Shown here: piece by piece, positions 16,211-64,000 of the stretch
Numbering within the stretch: the first letter of the stretch is position 1
Layout: each line of letters begins with the position of its first letter
DNA from: Rossellomorea orangium
Lineage (GTDB): Bacteria > Bacillota > Bacilli > Bacillales > Bacillaceae_B
Assembly: GCF_019334305.1 (NCBI RefSeq)
Contig: NZ_JAHWGH010000007.1
Span: 1 to 64,000 of the forward strand
Length of the DNA stretch: 64,000 nt
Direction: 5' to 3'
Position numbers and translations under genes: made by a program
Notes under the pieces: model-generated
Seen by the model: the letters and a program-made list of their open reading frames with translations, nothing else
Databases searched by the model: none
Told to the model about the DNA's origin: nothing

Positions 16211-16400
16211 GCAAAAAGACCACCAGGAACTAAGCCTGTGGTCATTATCCATTAAAGATCACAAGTATCATCCTCTCCCACTACGCTTACGAGGTTAGCT
16301 GACGGATTCGGGTCATGGAAGTAGCCCTACCTTTCAATAGAAAGGATTCACCCCTATAGTACTAATGGTTCCCCCGCTTCAATTCATGAATTAAGCGATA
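16211..16400 (-). promoter_or_regulatory. c-di-AMP riboswitch (ydaO/yuaA leader) with terminator
   Basis: On the minus strand the conserved ydaO blocks appear in order: TCGCTTAATTC, GCGGGGGAACCA, GGGGTGAATCC, GGTAGGGCTAC, GACCCGAATCCGTCAGCTAA and CCTCGTAAGCG. A GACCACAGG/CCTGGTGGTC hairpin with T run (16213-16244) follows as the expression platform. Ligand binding is expected to terminate transcription of the potassium uptake operon downstream. Confidence 0.95.
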
Positions 16401-16533
16401 AAGAATATTCATTTGATGATAGATATATTACTCCTCTCCACATGGGTTGTAAATAGATTATTTGTAAAAAATTCTTAAAGAAAAACAGGCAAAATTGTCT
16501 CAATACATCCAACATTTACTGTTCGTTAAAAAG

Positions 16534-37440: not shown

Positions 37441-37608
37441 AAAAACCCTCTTCCTAAGAAGAGGGTCTAAATGAATAGGGTCCTCCTCTTATCTTTCAGG
37501 CAAATCGCCTGCAGGAATTAGCACCTTTTCATGCGACGCCTTTAGCGTACATGAAGGTTGCCGGGTTTCATCGGGCCTAGTCCCTCCACCTCTCTGGATA
37601 AGAGCATA
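37441..37608 (-). promoter_or_regulatory. SAM-I (S-box) riboswitch with terminator
   Basis: On minus: CTCTTATCCAGAGAGGTGGA, GGCCCGATGAAACCCGGCAA, GGTGCTAATTCCTGCAG and closing AGATAAGAG (P1), followed by a terminator CCCTCTTC/GAAGAGGG with T run (37443-37467). SAM binding stops transcription of metY-metX. Confidence 0.96.
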
Positions 37609-42261: not shown

Positions 42262-42420
42262 TAAAAAAACACCCCACGAATCGGCAGGCATGATCATACT
42301 AGCAAAATGCTACCATTAGTATTCATTGCTTCCGTTATTTCGGTAACCCGGCGATCATTATTTTAATAAAATGGAAGACCCGTGGCTTTGCGTCCTAATT
42401 TTTCAATTAGTTTGCCTTTT
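42262..42420 (-). promoter_or_regulatory. c-di-GMP-I (GEMM-I) riboswitch
   Basis: On minus, hallmark blocks appear in order: GGCAAACTAATTGAAAAATT (first stem-loop), GGACGCAAAGCCACGGGTC (42395-42377), a variable stem, and GATCGCCGGGTTACCG (about 42355-42340), closing with GGAAGC. This is the canonical GEMM-I aptamer. A CATGCC/GGGGTG stem followed by seven T residues (about 42262-42290) is a candidate terminator, so binding probably acts on transcription elongation. Confidence 0.9.
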
Positions 42421-42531
42421 TCGAAAATCAATTAAATATATTGTCATTATACTAAAAGAATGATGATATGAAAACACAATACCGTAATTCATTGGTGAAT
42501 CCTTTATCCTAATATAGAGTGAAAGCATACA

Positions 42532-56435: not shown

Positions 56436-56981
56436 TCATAAAAATTGATGTAATTTAACCTCTACATAAAACTTATAATGACTCTTAGAACCGTCACTCA
56501 TATAAGATAATATCCTTTTTGTATCGACATACTTGCTGGGACGGCTGGATACAAATGATCGGTAACTGGACCATTGATAACCTTCAGGCGAGGGACACAT
56601 GCCTGCTCTTACAGGATTAAGATGGATGTAACAACTGGTGTCGATCAGCTGTTTGTTATTCGTTATCACAACAGACTTAAACCGCCCCTCAAAAAGATGC
56701 CCGTTAAAGCCGTTCTTCTTGTTAAAATATCTAGCATACCGGTAATGGATGTAGTGAATGATTTTTCCTGGAGGATGATTCTGAGTTTCGATCAAGAGGT
56801 GAACATGATTCGTCATGAGACAATAGGAGTGTAGGATAAAGGGGTATTTTTCTTTTGCGGCTTCCACTATTTCTAAGTATTTCAATCGATCGTCCTTATT
56901 GCGGAAGATGGTATACTTCCGGTTTCCACGTGCAGTGATATGGTAGATGAAGCCTGGAGACCATTCTCTCTTCTTATACAT
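56436..56981 (-). CDS. REP-associated Y1 tyrosine transposase (RAYT, IS200-like)
   Basis: 181 residues. Y1_Tnp family: HIT-RGNRKYTIF near the N-terminus (~14-26), HUH motif NHVHLL (His59, His61), LFEGRFKSVVI (~96), and the catalytic Tyr118 in CYIHLNPVRAG. RAYTs are domesticated relatives of IS200/IS605 transposases that nick at REP palindromes. ATG at 56981 follows AAAGGAAG; a longer frame to 57026 is possible. It sits between two arrays of a short palindrome (56287-56424 and 57324-57411), the organisation expected of a REP-RAYT unit. Confidence 0.9.
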   Translation of the reverse strand: MYKKREWSPGFIYHITARGNRKYTIFRNKDDRLKYLEIVEAAKEKYPFILHSYCLMTNHVHLLIETQNHPPGKIIHYIHYRYARYFNKKNGFNGHLFEGRFKSVVITNNKQLIDTSCYIHLNPVRAGMCPSPEGYQWSSYRSFVSSRPSKYVDTKRILSYMSDGSKSHYKFYVEVKLHQFL

Positions 56982-57065
56982 AGCAACTTCCTTTCTTTTG
57001 TTTGGTGTAAATTTGTTATTCGACATTCTTTTTGAAATTCCTGCAAACTCCAGTCTAACAGCTAC

Positions 57066-59002: not shown

Positions 59003-59350
59003 CTATTTCTTTTTATCGTAAAACATTCCATCGTATTGCAGGGATTCGTATGGGTTTGAATACTTTTGAACAGACGTTTTTTTCCTGGTTAAGCCGTTCA
59101 TATCCCGTTTAATCTGAAGACGCAATTGAGCCAGCTTCCGATCGATTTGCGCATTCCAAGCGATCATCTGCTTGCCAAGCTCCTGCTCCTCCTGAGTATA
59201 AGGAGGCTTGATAGTGCCAAGTACGCTATGTCTTTTTTCTAAAAGAGACTCTACTTCTTCAATGGTTGACTCCCTGTTTTCATCATTCACCTGTTCCAAT
59301 GCTTCTTTCAATTGCTTCGTGATCGTATAGCACAGAAGAACCGAGTTCAT
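59003..59350 (-). CDS. fliT: FliT-like flagellar chaperone
   Basis: 115 residues, helical bundle (YTITKQLKEALEQVNDENRE, IEEVESLLEKRHSVLGTIKPP). Position directly after fliS, length and predicted fold match FliT, the FliD chaperone. ATG at 59350 overlaps the fliS stop (TAATG); the longer frame to 59413 is inside fliS. Confidence 0.85.
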   Translation of the reverse strand: MNSVLLCYTITKQLKEALEQVNDENRESTIEEVESLLEKRHSVLGTIKPPYTQEEQELGKQMIAWNAQIDRKLAQLRLQIKRDMNGLTRKKTSVQKYSNPYESLQYDGMFYDKKK

Positions 59351-59754
59351 TACGCCTGTCCACCTTGACCGGCATGCTGTTTCTGGCGGTTCAGTTGAAT
59401 GACTTCTTTCCAAGTATCACGGAAATCAGTGATGAGCCCCTCAACTTCTTCTAAAATCGCAGCGTCATTCTTGATGTTGGCTTCTGTTAAGCGACGGTTG
59501 ATATAGTCGTAAAGGGACATAAGGTTTTGTGAGACTTCAAGATCTGTATTCAACGTCACCATCAGCTCGTTCACGATGGCTTGCGTCTTTTGGATATTCG
59601 TATTCTTCAGTTCAATATTCTTCTCTTCAATGGCTTTTTTTGCGATATGGATAAATTTCAGGCTTCCGTTATAGAGCATAAGGGTGAGTTCACCTGGTGA
59701 TGCGGTGTTGACCGAGTTGTTCTGGTATGCTGCATACGGGTTGTTGATGGCCAT
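59350..59754 (-). CDS. fliS: Flagellar export chaperone FliS
   Basis: 134 residues. Typical start INNPYAAYQNNSVNTASPGELTLMLY (split: NPYAAYQNNSV, TASPGELTLMLYNG) and helical bundle with the DYINRRLTEANIKND region (~85-99). Binds the flagellin C-terminus to prevent premature polymerisation. Between fliD and fliT in the late flagellar operon. Confidence 0.95.
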   Translation of the reverse strand: MAINNPYAAYQNNSVNTASPGELTLMLYNGSLKFIHIAKKAIEEKNIELKNTNIQKTQAIVNELMVTLNTDLEVSQNLMSLYDYINRRLTEANIKNDAAILEEVEGLITDFRDTWKEVIQLNRQKQHAGQGGQA

Positions 59755-59776: not shown

Positions 59777-61789
59777 TTAGCCGCCGAATTGGTTCATGAG
59801 GAACATAGACTGTTCGTTGGAACGCTGAATCGCTTTTTCCATGGCGGTGAATTGGCGCCAGTAGCGGTCTTCGACTTGTTTAAGTCGGTCTTGGAAGCGG
59901 TCAATGCTGCTGTCTACATTGGTAAGCTCACGTCCAAGGGAAAATTGCTGGTTTGTAGAAAAGGAATTACCTGCCTTTTCTTTGAGTTTGTCCATGGATT
60001 GATTGACAGAATCATAGAGTCTTTGCACCAATCCCTTTTGATTAAAAGTGTTTCCATCCCCCCTAAAGAGGTTTTCAACTGATTCGGGATCGCTTTCAAT
60101 TGCCTTTTTCAAATCTGCGTCGTTAATGACTAGTTTTCCACCTTCAAGATAGTTACTGCTCGTTGTAATTCCGATGCTTGCCAATTGACTAAAAGCGGAA
60201 GAGACCTTTTCATTTGAGACAGGTGCGTAGAAGTCGGTTCTCATTTGTGAAAGGACTCCAGTTAAAATCGGATCTCTCTTTAATAGGCCGCTCTTCGCTT
60301 TTTCTTCCCATTGCTCTTGCTGCTTATCGGATAAGCTTTCCCTTTGCTCATCGGTTAAAGGCTGATAACTTCTGTAGTAATCTTCAGACGTTTTCTTCTG
60401 GATTTTATCGATTAGCTCATTGTATTTCGTGACGAATTCTTTAATGTTGTCAAACACCTTTGTACTATCATTATTTACTGAAATGCTCACTGGATCAGTA
60501 AACGTATTCTTGATATTTAATGTTACTCCGTTCATTTCAAAGGTATTCGAATGTCTTCTTGTATCCAGCCCATTCAAATTGAAAATAGCATCTTGTCCAT
60601 CTGTTTCCGTTCCTGAACCAAATCGAAGAAAGCTATTCATAAATGTTCCGCTTTTAATGATTTCTTTACCAGCTTCATTAAAGTTACCCGTTTCTTTTCG
60701 GGTAAGGGTCAGTTGATCTGAGAAAGAATCATAGAACATCGTTACCCCGACACTTGAAGAATTGACCTTCTCCATGACCGAATTAAGAGACTGGGAACCT
60801 TGTACAAGAAATGTTTCAGAAGTCTCTCCTTTTGAGGTGTGAGCTCCAAGTGAGAAAGAAGTGTAGTTTTGTTTATACGTTACTTCAATTTTTGTATCTT
60901 TCGCTTGTTCAGTATTAAAATTCACTTTACCGGTTTCTTTATTAATGAATCCAACAATATTATCGCTAGCATCTTTGATATCAAGCGTATCGTTTGAACC
61001 ATCTGAGACACTATAGGTCACATCATTTATTTTGATAGCGTCTACCGAATGAATTGATCCTCTTGAAAGTTGCCAACTAGAAGATGGCTGAGTCAGGGTG
61101 GTACTATCGGTTTTGTTTTCAGTTACAAACTGGGCATTCACAACAGCACCCTTTTTTAATCCTGCTCCACCAAATAGCAATTTATCATTAGTCGTATCCA
61201 GGAATATTTCCCCATCAGATGTTGGAGGGGACTGAACCACTTTGAATACTTTACCATCAACTTTAATATTTACAGCATTTGAATCAATTGCGTTCAAGCC
61301 ATCTAAAGATAATTCAGTCGTTCCTTCAGAAGCTACTGTGAAATTCTTTGATTCTACTACTCCTGCGCTCCAAGTCAGAGAATTCCTCATTTTAGTATTC
61401 TGAGAATGAAGACTTTTGGTCGCATCCATTTTATCCGTTGATGATGCGGATACTCCTCCAGCGTTCTTGAGAACAGCTGCACTTGCCAACTGGGTTACAT
61501 TCTTGATTGAATAGGATGATTGTGATGCTGCGCTGCTGGCTGTTGCCGTCACATAGTCCGAATTGGTTGAAGAAGTTGTTCTGGCACGATAGTTTGTCGA
61601 TAACTTCATTTGAGTTAATTCAGATCTAAAATCCAACAACAATGTATTCATGGAACGATAGTCATCCCGCTGCCATTCCAGTGTCTGTTTCTTTTGTTTT
61701 AATTTATCTAAAGGCATTCGCTCTGCCTTCATCAAGTCCGCTACAAGGGAATCAATATCCATTCCACTTGCCAAACCACCGATTCTCAT
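59777..61789 (-). CDS. fliD: Flagellar filament cap protein FliD (large)
   Basis: 670 residues. N-terminal coiled coil MRIGGLASGMDIDSLVADLM, central variable domains, C-terminal FliD_C with coiled coil (~600-660; VDSSIDRFQDRLKQVEDRYW). Caps the growing filament and promotes flagellin folding. The B. subtilis protein is ~498 residues; the ~170 extra residues are in the central D2/D3 region, in line with an enlarged flagellin in the same locus. Confidence 0.95.
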   Translation of the reverse strand: MRIGGLASGMDIDSLVADLMKAERMPLDKLKQKKQTLEWQRDDYRSMNTLLLDFRSELTQMKLSTNYRARTTSSTNSDYVTATASSAASQSSYSIKNVTQLASAAVLKNAGGVSASSTDKMDATKSLHSQNTKMRNSLTWSAGVVESKNFTVASEGTTELSLDGLNAIDSNAVNIKVDGKVFKVVQSPPTSDGEIFLDTTNDKLLFGGAGLKKGAVVNAQFVTENKTDSTTLTQPSSSWQLSRGSIHSVDAIKINDVTYSVSDGSNDTLDIKDASDNIVGFINKETGKVNFNTEQAKDTKIEVTYKQNYTSFSLGAHTSKGETSETFLVQGSQSLNSVMEKVNSSSVGVTMFYDSFSDQLTLTRKETGNFNEAGKEIIKSGTFMNSFLRFGSGTETDGQDAIFNLNGLDTRRHSNTFEMNGVTLNIKNTFTDPVSISVNNDSTKVFDNIKEFVTKYNELIDKIQKKTSEDYYRSYQPLTDEQRESLSDKQQEQWEEKAKSGLLKRDPILTGVLSQMRTDFYAPVSNEKVSSAFSQLASIGITTSSNYLEGGKLVINDADLKKAIESDPESVENLFRGDGNTFNQKGLVQRLYDSVNQSMDKLKEKAGNSFSTNQQFSLGRELTNVDSSIDRFQDRLKQVEDRYWRQFTAMEKAIQRSNEQSMFLMNQFGG

Positions 61790-61801
61790 CAGGACACTCC
61801 C

Positions 61802-62161
61802 CTATACCTTTTTATCGACCAGCAAACCAACAAATTCCGTCATCGCGGCATGCATATCAAGCATTTTCTTTGCCGGTATTTCTTTCACTACTTCCTGAGT
61901 GCGATCATCCACAATAGTCACATAGTATTCTTTCAATTTATCATGAAATTCAAATTTGAGGTGTGTATTCGAAGTGGACATAAACTCATTCATCCCATGA
62001 ACGACATCTTCTATTTTTTCTTTGGTGACAGGTTCTTTGGTGGTGGTTTCTTTATGGTGTCGTTCTTGCGCTTGAATTTGTTTCACTTCTTCACTTGTTT
62101 GGTTCTTTAATCTAGTAAATGATTGTATTCCTTGTACTCCACCTGTCACTTTGTCCATCAT
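61802..62161 (-). CDS. flaG: FlaG family flagellar protein
   Basis: 119 residues. Charged, low-complexity N-terminal half, then the FlaG domain (~50-119; LKFEFHDKLKEYYVTIVDDR, EVVKEIPAKKMLDMHAAM). Influences filament length in other bacteria. First gene of flaG-fliD-fliS-fliT, behind a sigma-D-type promoter; RBS AGGAGG. Confidence 0.92.
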   Translation of the reverse strand: MMDKVTGGVQGIQSFTRLKNQTSEEVKQIQAQERHHKETTTKEPVTKEKIEDVVHGMNEFMSTSNTHLKFEFHDKLKEYYVTIVDDRTQEVVKEIPAKKMLDMHAAMTEFVGLLVDKKV

Positions 62162-62228: not shown

Positions 62229-62260
62229 GAAAAAGAGACCCTATTGCTAGAGTCTCTTTT
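62229..62260 (-). terminator. Terminator of the flagellin gene
   Basis: AGAGACTCTAG/TAGGGTCTCT hairpin with T run on minus, located after the distal flagellin exon. Confidence 0.9.
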
Positions 62261-62273
62261 AGAGAAATTAGTA

Positions 62274-62318
62274 TTAACGAAGAAGTTGTAAAACTCCTTG
62301 TGGTTGTTGGTTCGCTTG
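62274..62318 (-). CDS. Distal (3') flagellin exon
   Basis: Fifteen codons, CAA GCG AAC CAA CAA CCA ... TAA, encode QANQQPQGVLQLLR and a stop: the canonical flagellin C-terminus. No start codon or RBS belongs to it. It follows immediately after the group I intron and precedes the flagellin terminator, so it is the downstream exon. The same tail is also encoded upstream of the intron core with different synonymous codons. Confidence 0.85.
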   Translation of the reverse strand, partial: QANQQPQGVLQLLR

Positions 62319-62671
62319 CTTTGCGACTATGTCTTTCAATCATAGAATAGACTATATCTTCACCCTTGTATGTAAGGGGCTGGGCACTTCGAACAGGATT
62401 TACTGCCCTACGAGATTCATAGTCATAGCTTTCGCCTTAGACCGTGTTCTCTAGTCGTTGAACCTTCTCCAGAGTTTCCTCTCAGGAGCTTGGCTGCTGA
62501 TTATCCATTGTTTCATCTCTATCATTTTCAGACCGTACCGCCTACCGTTTCCAGTTTCGTTATGGTTGATAAAGCTTTAGGAAGTTCCAGCAATTCACCC
62601 AGTTATACTCCAGCTCGTTACCAAGCTGGACGCCCTCGAATCATTTATCTCAGAAGTTGTAGTACTCCCTG
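62319..62671 (-). ncRNA. Group I intron (subgroup IA-like) in the flagellin gene
   Basis: Core elements on minus: internal guide GGGCGU (62635-62630) pairing with exon AUGCCU (62677-62672); P2 CCAGCU/AGCUGG; P3 CUGGG (62602-62598) with CCCAG (62384-62380); P4 UUGCUGG (62593-62587) with UCAGCAG (62500-62494) in AATCAGCAGCCAAGC; P7 GACUA (62456-62452) with UAGUC (62354-62350) in AAGATATAGTC; P8 CCCUU/AAGGG; P9 CUAUG/CAUAG; terminal G at 62319. Length 353 nt (371 if the 5' site is at 62690). No homing endonuclease. A self-splicing intron in a Geobacillus flagellin gene has been reported, as I recall. Confidence 0.92.
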
Positions 62672-64000
62672 AGGCATCTGATTGGATTGAGCCAACATTG
62701 CTTGTGCTGCTTGAGAAAGGATTGAGTTCTTTGTTTGAGTCATCATTTCTTTCGCCATGTCAACGTCACGTACACGAGACTCAGCAGCTGTTAAGTTTTC
62801 AGAAGAAGTTCCCAAATTATTGATTGTGTGCTCTAAGCGATTTTGGTATGACCCTAGTTTAGAACGCTCGCTAGAAACACTTGCAATTGCTTCATCTAAG
62901 ACCGCAACTGCAGCAGTTGCTTTTTCAGAATCAGAAACATCAAGCGCATATTCTACACCAGTACTGTTTGTACCATTCGTAATTTCTGCATCAGTTGATA
63001 CAAATGATGCATTTAAAGAATTACCTTGTCCGTCTGTTACGGATTTTGTTGCTCCTGAAGTTGCAGATGAGATGCTCAATGCTGATGCTCTCATGTCTGA
63101 AATTGAAACGCTCATTGATTGACCTGCATTAGCACCAATTTGAAAACTTAATGAGCGATCTTCGGTTACTGCTGGAGTTGTTACTGTAGGTGCAGTTGTA
63201 ACTGCGTTAGTAGCTGTTTCTAATAAAAATGATCCTGTTACTGTTCCATCACTTGAACTATCACCATTAGCAGTAAAATCAAATGAAATCCCGTCTGCAT
63301 CATAGTTTAAAGTGTCACCAGAAGCTAAGGAGAATGTGGATTGGGAAACCTGTGTAGCACCAGAAAATAATGTTGCAGTGAATTCTGAAGTTGATTCATC
63401 CCACGAAATATCAATTTTATCTACATTCTCAATTACATTACCTGACGTATTATTAACAGAAAAGTTTGTCATTGTTGCAGTAGCATCTCCTGTAGAACCA
63501 CCTATAGTAAGAGGCACATTTACTGGTTCCGATGAAACCGTTCCTGTACCGTCAGTACCAGCACCTGCAACTGTATTTAAATCTAGAGTAACTGAATCTC
63601 CATCTGCCCAGTTTGCTGCATCAGCAGATGTAAATGAGAAACTAATTCCTTGATTATTATAAGAATAAGTATCTGTAGCTGCATCAAAGGCAACTTTATC
63701 AGCATCAATAACTAATGTATTTGCACTACCATCTAATCCATCAAAGTCGACTTCAAAGTCTGAACCGTTCTTTGTAACGGTAACTTGGTTCGCTCCACTA
63801 TTGTTTAGATCTGTGTAATCAAATCCGTTATCAGCAGTTCCAGTAACATCAATATCAAATTTTGCTCCTGTAGTACCACCTGACCAAGTAATCGGTTCTG
63901 CACCGACAGTAATTGTTTGGTCAACTGCTTTTACTACGTTCACAGTTGAAGCAGGTGTTGTTACAGCTGCACTAACTTCAAAGTTTTCTGAACGATCACC
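62645..64000 (-). CDS. hag: Flagellin (5' part beyond the window), unspliced reading
   Basis: At least 451 residues in view; the frame runs open to the window edge (GDRSENFEVSAAV...), so the conserved N-terminal D0/D1 lies outside. The visible part has a long Thr/Ser/Asp/Asn-rich variable region and the conserved C-terminal coiled coil (GSYQNRLEHTINNL, AESRVRDVDMAKEMMTQTKN, QAAQAMLAQSNQMPQGVLQL). Read without splicing it ends at TAA 62647-62645. The group I intron begins within the last 15 codons, so spliced mRNA instead uses the exon at 62274-62318. Exported and polymerised into the filament; FliS binds its C-terminus. Confidence 0.93.
   Translation of the reverse strand, partial: GDRSENFEVSAAVTTPASTVNVVKAVDQTITVGAEPITWSGGTTGAKFDIDVTGTADNGFDYTDLNNSGANQVTVTKNGSDFEVDFDGLDGSANTLVIDADKVAFDAATDTYSYNNQGISFSFTSADAANWADGDSVTLDLNTVAGAGTDGTGTVSSEPVNVPLTIGGSTGDATATMTNFSVNNTSGNVIENVDKIDISWDESTSEFTATLFSGATQVSQSTFSLASGDTLNYDADGISFDFTANGDSSSDGTVTGSFLLETATNAVTTAPTVTTPAVTEDRSLSFQIGANAGQSMSVSISDMRASALSISSATSGATKSVTDGQGNSLNASFVSTDAEITNGTNSTGVEYALDVSDSEKATAAVAVLDEAIASVSSERSKLGSYQNRLEHTINNLGTSSENLTAAESRVRDVDMAKEMMTQTKNSILSQAAQAMLAQSNQMPQGVLQLLR

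Follow-up and report, generated by a model that had tools for sequence, protein, structure and literature searches.

The window, a stretch of 64,000 nucleotides from Rossellomorea orangium, holds a flagellin locus near its end (Table 1). The flagellin gene, a highly expressed gene, is read from the minus strand and extends beyond the window. Its open frame of 588 residues, which includes a tail encoded by an intron, matched Flagellin_N with 170 bits and Flagellin_C with 97.5 bits. Downstream, an inverted repeat with a T run was read as the probable terminator, followed by the genes for FlaG, FliD and FliS, the last of which is the flagellin chaperone. A Flagellin_N profile search of the whole genome found the intron-bearing gene and one weaker frame of 303 residues. 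Since the latter presumably encodes the hook-filament junction protein FlgL, the intron-bearing gene appears to be the sole flagellin gene of the genome. Elsewhere in the window, riboswitches for c-di-AMP (16268-16407, minus strand), SAM (37486-37604, minus strand) and c-di-GMP-I (42338-42425, minus strand) were seen, the last of which may be relevant to motility control, as well as a 196-residue frame (56436-57026, minus strand) that we take to resemble an IS200/REP-type transposase.

Table 1. Features of the flagellin locus and its intron (positions in the window)
Feature	Position	Strand	Remark
Flagellin 5' exon	62690..64000	-	ends ATG TTG GCT; gene extends beyond the window
Group I intron	62319..62689	-	371 nt; begins CAAUCC, finishes GUCGCAAAG
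Intron-encoded spare tail, QSNQMPQGVLQLLR-stop	62645..62689	-	within P1 stem and loop
Internal guide sequence GGGCGU	62630..62635	-	GGGC pairs with exon GCU and intron C1
Rfam RF00028 covariance-model match	62327..62663	-	70.9 bits, E 5.4e-16
Flagellin 3' exon	62274..62318	-	encodes QANQQPQGVLQLLR-stop
Inverted repeat, then T run	62231..62260	-	read by eye; probable terminator
FlaG	61802..62161	-	flagellin locus, downstream of the flagellin gene
FliD	59777..61789	-	flagellin locus, downstream of the flagellin gene
FliS	59350..59754	-	flagellin locus, downstream of the flagellin gene

From the letters of this DNA alone, an earlier reading, here called the sequence-only reading, had proposed that the flagellin gene holds a group I intron. 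The flagellin domains of the open frame and the RF00028 match, which exceeds the gathering score of 50, confirmed this. The match ends 8 nt short of the inferred terminal G, and the 3' boundary was placed from the reading frame and by comparison. Among the fetched relatives, 29 intron-less alleles were available (L169 carries the intron and was excluded), 24 of which end MLAQANQQPQGVLQLLR. Cutting between ATG TTG GCT and CAA at the 5' site (GCU/CAA, 62689) and between AAG and CAA at the 3' site (62319) rebuilds exactly a protein with this end and leaves an intron of 371 nt. Of these 29 alleles, only 13 have GCT at the splice position.

Group I introns are described with a U at position -1 that pairs with a G of the P1 strand, and with a 3'-terminal G (PMC11915505, in the text available). 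In the window the U of exon GCU faces a G of the guide, giving a U.G pair at the 5' splice site. Among the matches listed, all 121 distinct introns have U at -1 and G as their last base, and in all 121 the exon codon and C1 are complementary to the guide; the codon before the intron is GCT in 119 and TCT in 2. Both TCT introns have the guide GGGA and not GGGC. This replacement of GCU:GGGC by UCU:GGGA is a compensatory change in P1, which by comparison fixes the 5' splice site at GCU. When the P1 segment was folded to minimum energy, exon codon and C1 were paired with the guide in 120 of 121 introns among the matches listed, L261 being the exception. In 89 introns, the region of codons 2-5 paired with its own pre-guide partner better than shuffled sequences did (mean 6.09 versus 5.36, with 5.72 as the highest of 200 shuffles). 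A P10 pairing of the 3' exon with the bases before the guide was searched for by eye and not found, and the intron, judged by its 371 nt alone, holds no homing endonuclease gene. Codons 1-7 of the 3' exon (62298-62318) are nearly frozen at the nucleotide level in the closer intron-bearing set, less so in the wider intron set, and variable in the intron-less alleles, which may reflect either a contact made during splicing or transfer of these codons together with the intron.

The frame of the 5' exon continues into the intron, whose first 42 nt encode QSNQMPQGVLQLLR and are followed by a stop that ends at 62645. The second tail copy, QANQQPQGVLQLLR and a stop ending at 62274, lies in the 3' exon, so that the spliced message would give the canonical tail. 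The earlier count of 12 equal residues out of 14 with at least eight synonymous codon differences held: 12 of 14 residues are equal, and the codon differs at 8 of the 13 same-residue positions (stop counted).

A first set of related introns was obtained by scanning public genomes for the 3' junction, whereby the 3' exon was inspected and the intron tail ignored. The scan gave 58 stretches, whose genera include Rossellomorea, Peribacillus, Heyndrickxia, Niallia, Sutcliffiella, Metabacillus, Neobacillus and Sporosarcina; together with the window they contain 56 complete introns, 53 of them distinct. Four loci ending before the 5' exon and one locus with a cut 3' exon were left out. The tail was present in 53 of the 53 distinct introns with the stop always at intron nucleotides 43-45, and the distance from this fixed stop to the guide varied from 7 to 12 nt. 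Further introns came from the matches listed when 299 genomes at the order level and 398 at the class level were searched with queries that included the tail. The merged set holds at least 121 distinct introns; not counted in it are three intron remnants that lack their 5' part (the second copy of L150, L173 and L190) and L265, from which nothing was parsed. Among the matches listed, 118 of the 121 re-encode the tail as 14 residues containing VLQLL, and so do all five copies outside the 121 (L169, L234, L237, L259 and L264, the last with no 3' exon copy found). Because the tail recurs in 118 of 121 distinct introns and in 5 of 5 further copies, counts that relatedness inflates, its re-encoding is evidently not due to chance.

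The intron is carried by only 13 of the 36 genomes of the genus. One record named Pseudomonas sp. ISL-84 (L061) carries the Bacillota flagellin junction of this intron, and the assembly is probably mislabelled or contaminated. Since three of the 121 introns (L151, L235 and L266, among the matches listed) have no tail, the tail is not indispensable. In L151 the frame is broken and runs into a long unrelated end; this is the only clear variant that breaks the frame and keeps the structure among the 121 of the matches listed. The read-through of L235 ends QLLVA-stop and that of L266 QFEQVA-stop, which gives a VA end in two of the three.

Changes in the tail were then counted by parsimony on an approximate tree built from the rest of the intron, with 117 tips (three tail-less introns and one cut locus omitted). 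In codons 9-13 of the intron tail, encoding VLQLL, 162 nucleotide changes and no residue change were found. The VLQLL codons of the 3' exon copy showed 141 nucleotide changes and again no residue change in the same 117 introns. If changes fell at random, the expected synonymous share in codons 9-13 would be 0.276. Elsewhere in the intron tail, the residue is free to vary at codon 5 (36 residue changes) and moderately so at codons 2 and 14 (11 and 8). Because 162 and 141 nucleotide changes left every residue intact, we conclude that both copies are, on this comparative evidence, under selection at the protein level, in agreement with the sequence-only reading. Comparison between relatives shows the anatomy of the intron, its splice sites and the selection on both tails.

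The two copies might have been kept alike by gene conversion or homogenisation. In codons 7-14, the intron copy has a DNA identity of 0.731 to its own exon copy, which is hardly above the 0.724 to the exon copies of other genomes, and this explanation was rejected. Unusual residues are nevertheless mostly common to both. In 87 introns (the locus with the cut 3' exon and L151 omitted), departures of the exon were matched in the intron copy in 7 of 7 cases at position 8 and in 6 of 6 cases at position 14, which none of 20000 shuffles reached for either position, and in 3 of 4 cases at position 5, which 41 of 20000 shuffles reached. Relatedness is not taken into account by the shuffles, and only a handful of lineages contribute the matched cases. 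Such pairs are LLG with LLG, LLQ with LLQ, and AVLQLLR with AVLQLLR. At the class level, the matches listed include further matched cases in L228, L231, L252 and L260-L263 and mismatches between intron and exon at position 8 in L226 and L227. At position 8 the intron departs alone, with the usual residue in the exon, in L147, and at position 14 it does so in L070, L076 and L168. As homogenisation is absent, yet unusual residues are mostly shared, the likeness of the copies appears to be maintained by selection and not by copying.

An intron-type tail can also stand alone. In Fredinandcohnia onubensis (L064), a second flagellin gene has no intron at the tail site and ends QSNQMPQGVLQLLR. This is its sole tail, closed by the exon-type CGT TAA, as would be expected if the intron had been lost by recombination between the two tails.

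The sequence-only reading had also offered that splicing selects between two C-termini that FliS and the export gate recognise. In the form considered here, splicing regulated by temperature or growth phase would select between two C-termini with different properties. For flagellin introns of thermophiles, temperature-dependent splicing is reported (PMC4853749, in the text available). Among the matches listed, the intron copy also retains systematic differences from the exon copy, position 2 being S in 96 of 118 introns and position 5 being M, L, T or I in 94 of them; the exon copy has Q at position 5 in 83 of 87. However, both positions lie in or adjoin the P1 pairing region and drift between lineages. 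Elsewhere in the tail, unusual residues mostly track the exon copy, and the L064 paralogue uses the intron-type tail by itself. Direct support for a role of FliS or the export gate did not emerge, and we consider such a selection of C-termini unlikely.

It is still far less probable that the tail-like sequence is conserved only for the RNA structure of P1 and its loop. Codons 1-5 are within or border P1, and the intron loop in the window folds a CUC...GAG hairpin, as do many others inspected by eye. Against this, the changes in codons 9-13 spared every residue, copies with CUU CUU CGA have lost the hairpin but kept the peptide (by eye), and the frame and the stop were retained in 118 of 121 introns among the matches listed. 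RNA structure alone was rejected as the cause of the conservation.

An equally improbable reading places the 5' splice site at CAG AUG CCU/CAG with the guide GGGCGU. The start of the tail would then be exonic and splicing would add six residues, with the frame shifted if the Rfam 3' end is right. Six pairs are indeed possible in the window and Rfam does put the intron end at 62327. The six-pair helix, however, is intact in only 47 of 89 introns, and the U before the cut is missing in 13 of 89, whereas GGGC does not vary in this set. The CCU site was rejected since the helix is broken in relatives and it is GCU or UCU that co-varies with the guide; the GCU site, moreover, gives the exact protein of 24 of the 29 intron-less alleles. 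Least credible of all, and likewise rejected, is a dead intron with only the unspliced tail in use and the 3' copy a relic: the unspliced protein is complete and decayed 3' intron fragments occur at other places (L150 second copy, L190), but the terminal G, the compensatory change in P1 and the conserved tail of the 3' exon speak against it.

We consider it likely that the spare tail is a fail-safe, by which ribosomes entering the unspliced RNA still complete a full-length flagellin. The stem and loop of P1 are dual-coded: they serve as the splice-site helix and also specify an alternative C-terminus of flagellin, complete with a stop codon. As translation is coupled to transcription, the leading ribosomes probably arrive at the 5' splice site while the intron of 371 nt is still being made. 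They would read on and terminate 45 nt into the intron, short of P2 and the core, so that a full-length flagellin with the end QSNQMPQGVLQLLR is released. After folding and excision of the intron, later ribosomes would make flagellin ending QANQQPQGVLQLLR. Since the unspliced message would yield a flagellin with the end QSNQMPQGVLQLLR, it would not be a source of tail-less flagellin. Splicing in vivo, the timing of the ribosomes and the functional equivalence of the two proteins are what we infer in this scheme.

The proposal that both messages give assembly-competent flagellin, and that the intron is buffered against splicing failure, is supported by the evolutionary evidence, namely the counts in VLQLL, the unusual residues shared without homogenisation and the L064 paralogue with QSNQMPQGVLQLLR only. 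A point against the fail-safe comes from thermophile introns, where splicing and motility are reported to depend on temperature, which suggests that the unspliced message is not fully functional there (PMC4853749, in the text available). The spare tail is a case of an intron sequence that selection preserves as part of the host protein, and it implies that the unspliced product may be what is described where a predicted flagellin has the end QSNQMP...LLR. It also offers a testable answer to the question of how such introns can survive in a gene with high expression.

A second flagellin group I intron, here called intron A, is absent from the window but present in relatives (L008, L019 and others) at RDVD/MAKEMM. 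Its junction is clear from the protein, and it finishes with UUCGCACG as the tail-site intron finishes with GUCGCAAAG. By eye, the exon GAU pairs with GUC directly before P2, in parallel to GCU with GGC at the tail site. The in-frame peptide was read in 77 distinct copies, leaving out introns that hold N, have a length outside 250-480 or are without the core motif. It ends in AA in 72 copies, in VA in 4 and in AV in 1, YALAA being the commonest read-through end (50 of 77). Variants with one more codon (YDLIAA, YVLTAA, YVLAAA) retain the AA end. On an approximate tree of intron A, the last alanine codon had 32 third-base changes and 1 residue change, and the penultimate alanine codon 5 and 3. 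Part of the stretch that encodes this peptide folds into a stem as well (by eye), which implies a contribution from structure. As a control, nine introns in genes not resembling flagellin were read, the genes being judged by eye and several related. They end RGK, TGK, GSR (four), LAV, YQR and KKVA (L219), with no AA end among the nine and one VA end; since L219 has this end in a gene unlike flagellin, VA by itself is weak evidence.

The common end of ssrA tags is LAA, and variants with LVA, AAV or SVA also serve as degradation tags (PMC9382460, in the text available). The tmRNA tag of the R. orangium genome ends NNNLALAA by manual translation. Its tmRNA gene is apparently split by a group I intron (L002:1170-1800; 39.9 bits, below the Rfam cut-off). 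The region follows a frame resembling smpB, and ARAGORN does not predict a gene in it; introns in tmRNA genes have been described before (PMC11915505, in the text available). In L064:1-420 we also noted a third flagellin intron-like insertion of about 300 nt after NAQDG, near the N-terminus, with the read-through RLEMPL-stop (both by eye).

We lean, with some reserve, towards a common scheme in which flagellin introns of Bacillota encode the fate of the unspliced product. Where the remaining tail is short (14 codons) it would be replaced, whereas where it is long (RDVD/MAKE) an ssrA-like degron such as YALAA would let ClpXP remove the truncated flagellin. Two of the three tail-less introns at the tail site would carry a degron in place of the tail. 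The intron would then be its own protein quality control, and intron A a natural encoded degradation tag that is independent of tmRNA.

Group I introns are thought to be disfavoured in bacterial protein genes because coupled translation interferes with their folding (PMC3984707, in the text available). Unspliced RNA would otherwise give a broken protein, and at the flagellin tail this problem is apparently solved at the protein level, inside the splice-site helix and across many genera. Many group I introns and IStrons begin with an in-frame stop that keeps ribosomes off the core (PMC3984707, PMC4227781); as far as these texts were available, such stops truncate the protein, whereas the flagellin intron stop follows a complete, selected tail. 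Introns of group IA2 are known from the flagellin genes of thermophilic bacilli, among them Geobacillus stearothermophilus (Hayakawa and Ishizuka 2009, 2012, via PMC3984707 and PMC4853749). Like the tail-site intron they are group I introns in flagellin genes of Bacillota, but the available descriptions mention no re-encoded tail and treat splicing as a possible temperature switch for motility. Neither a re-encoded tail nor an intron-encoded degron was found in the literature on flagellin and bacterial group I introns, as far as available and with the Hayakawa and Ishizuka papers represented by those citing them; a term search of the available text of PMC8512704 gave no mention of either. Flagellin group I introns are already known, and what is new against the sources available is the complete, selected protein end before the stop.

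Elements of the e14 type are prophages with an integrase, placed by DNA recombination, and the 371-nt intron is too short for an integrase. In the text available, e14 in icd of E. coli K-12 brings a C-terminus of 54 residues with 12 nucleotide exchanges and 2 conservative replacements (PMC11148124), so that the host gene remains functional. It would be the closest analogue in idea to the spare tail, since here too the element supplies the C-terminus of the host protein, with 12 of 14 residues equal. Yet e14 is a DNA element that displaces the original gene end, whereas with the flagellin intron, which acts as RNA, both copies apparently stay in use. In Clostridium tetani, the group II intron C.te.I1 undergoes four alternative splicing reactions that give distinct surface-layer isoforms (PMC3919590, in the text available). 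There, as at the flagellin tail, unspliced and spliced messages encode isoforms with different ends, but C.te.I1 makes distinct isoforms, whereas the flagellin intron provides one alternative end that copies the normal one.
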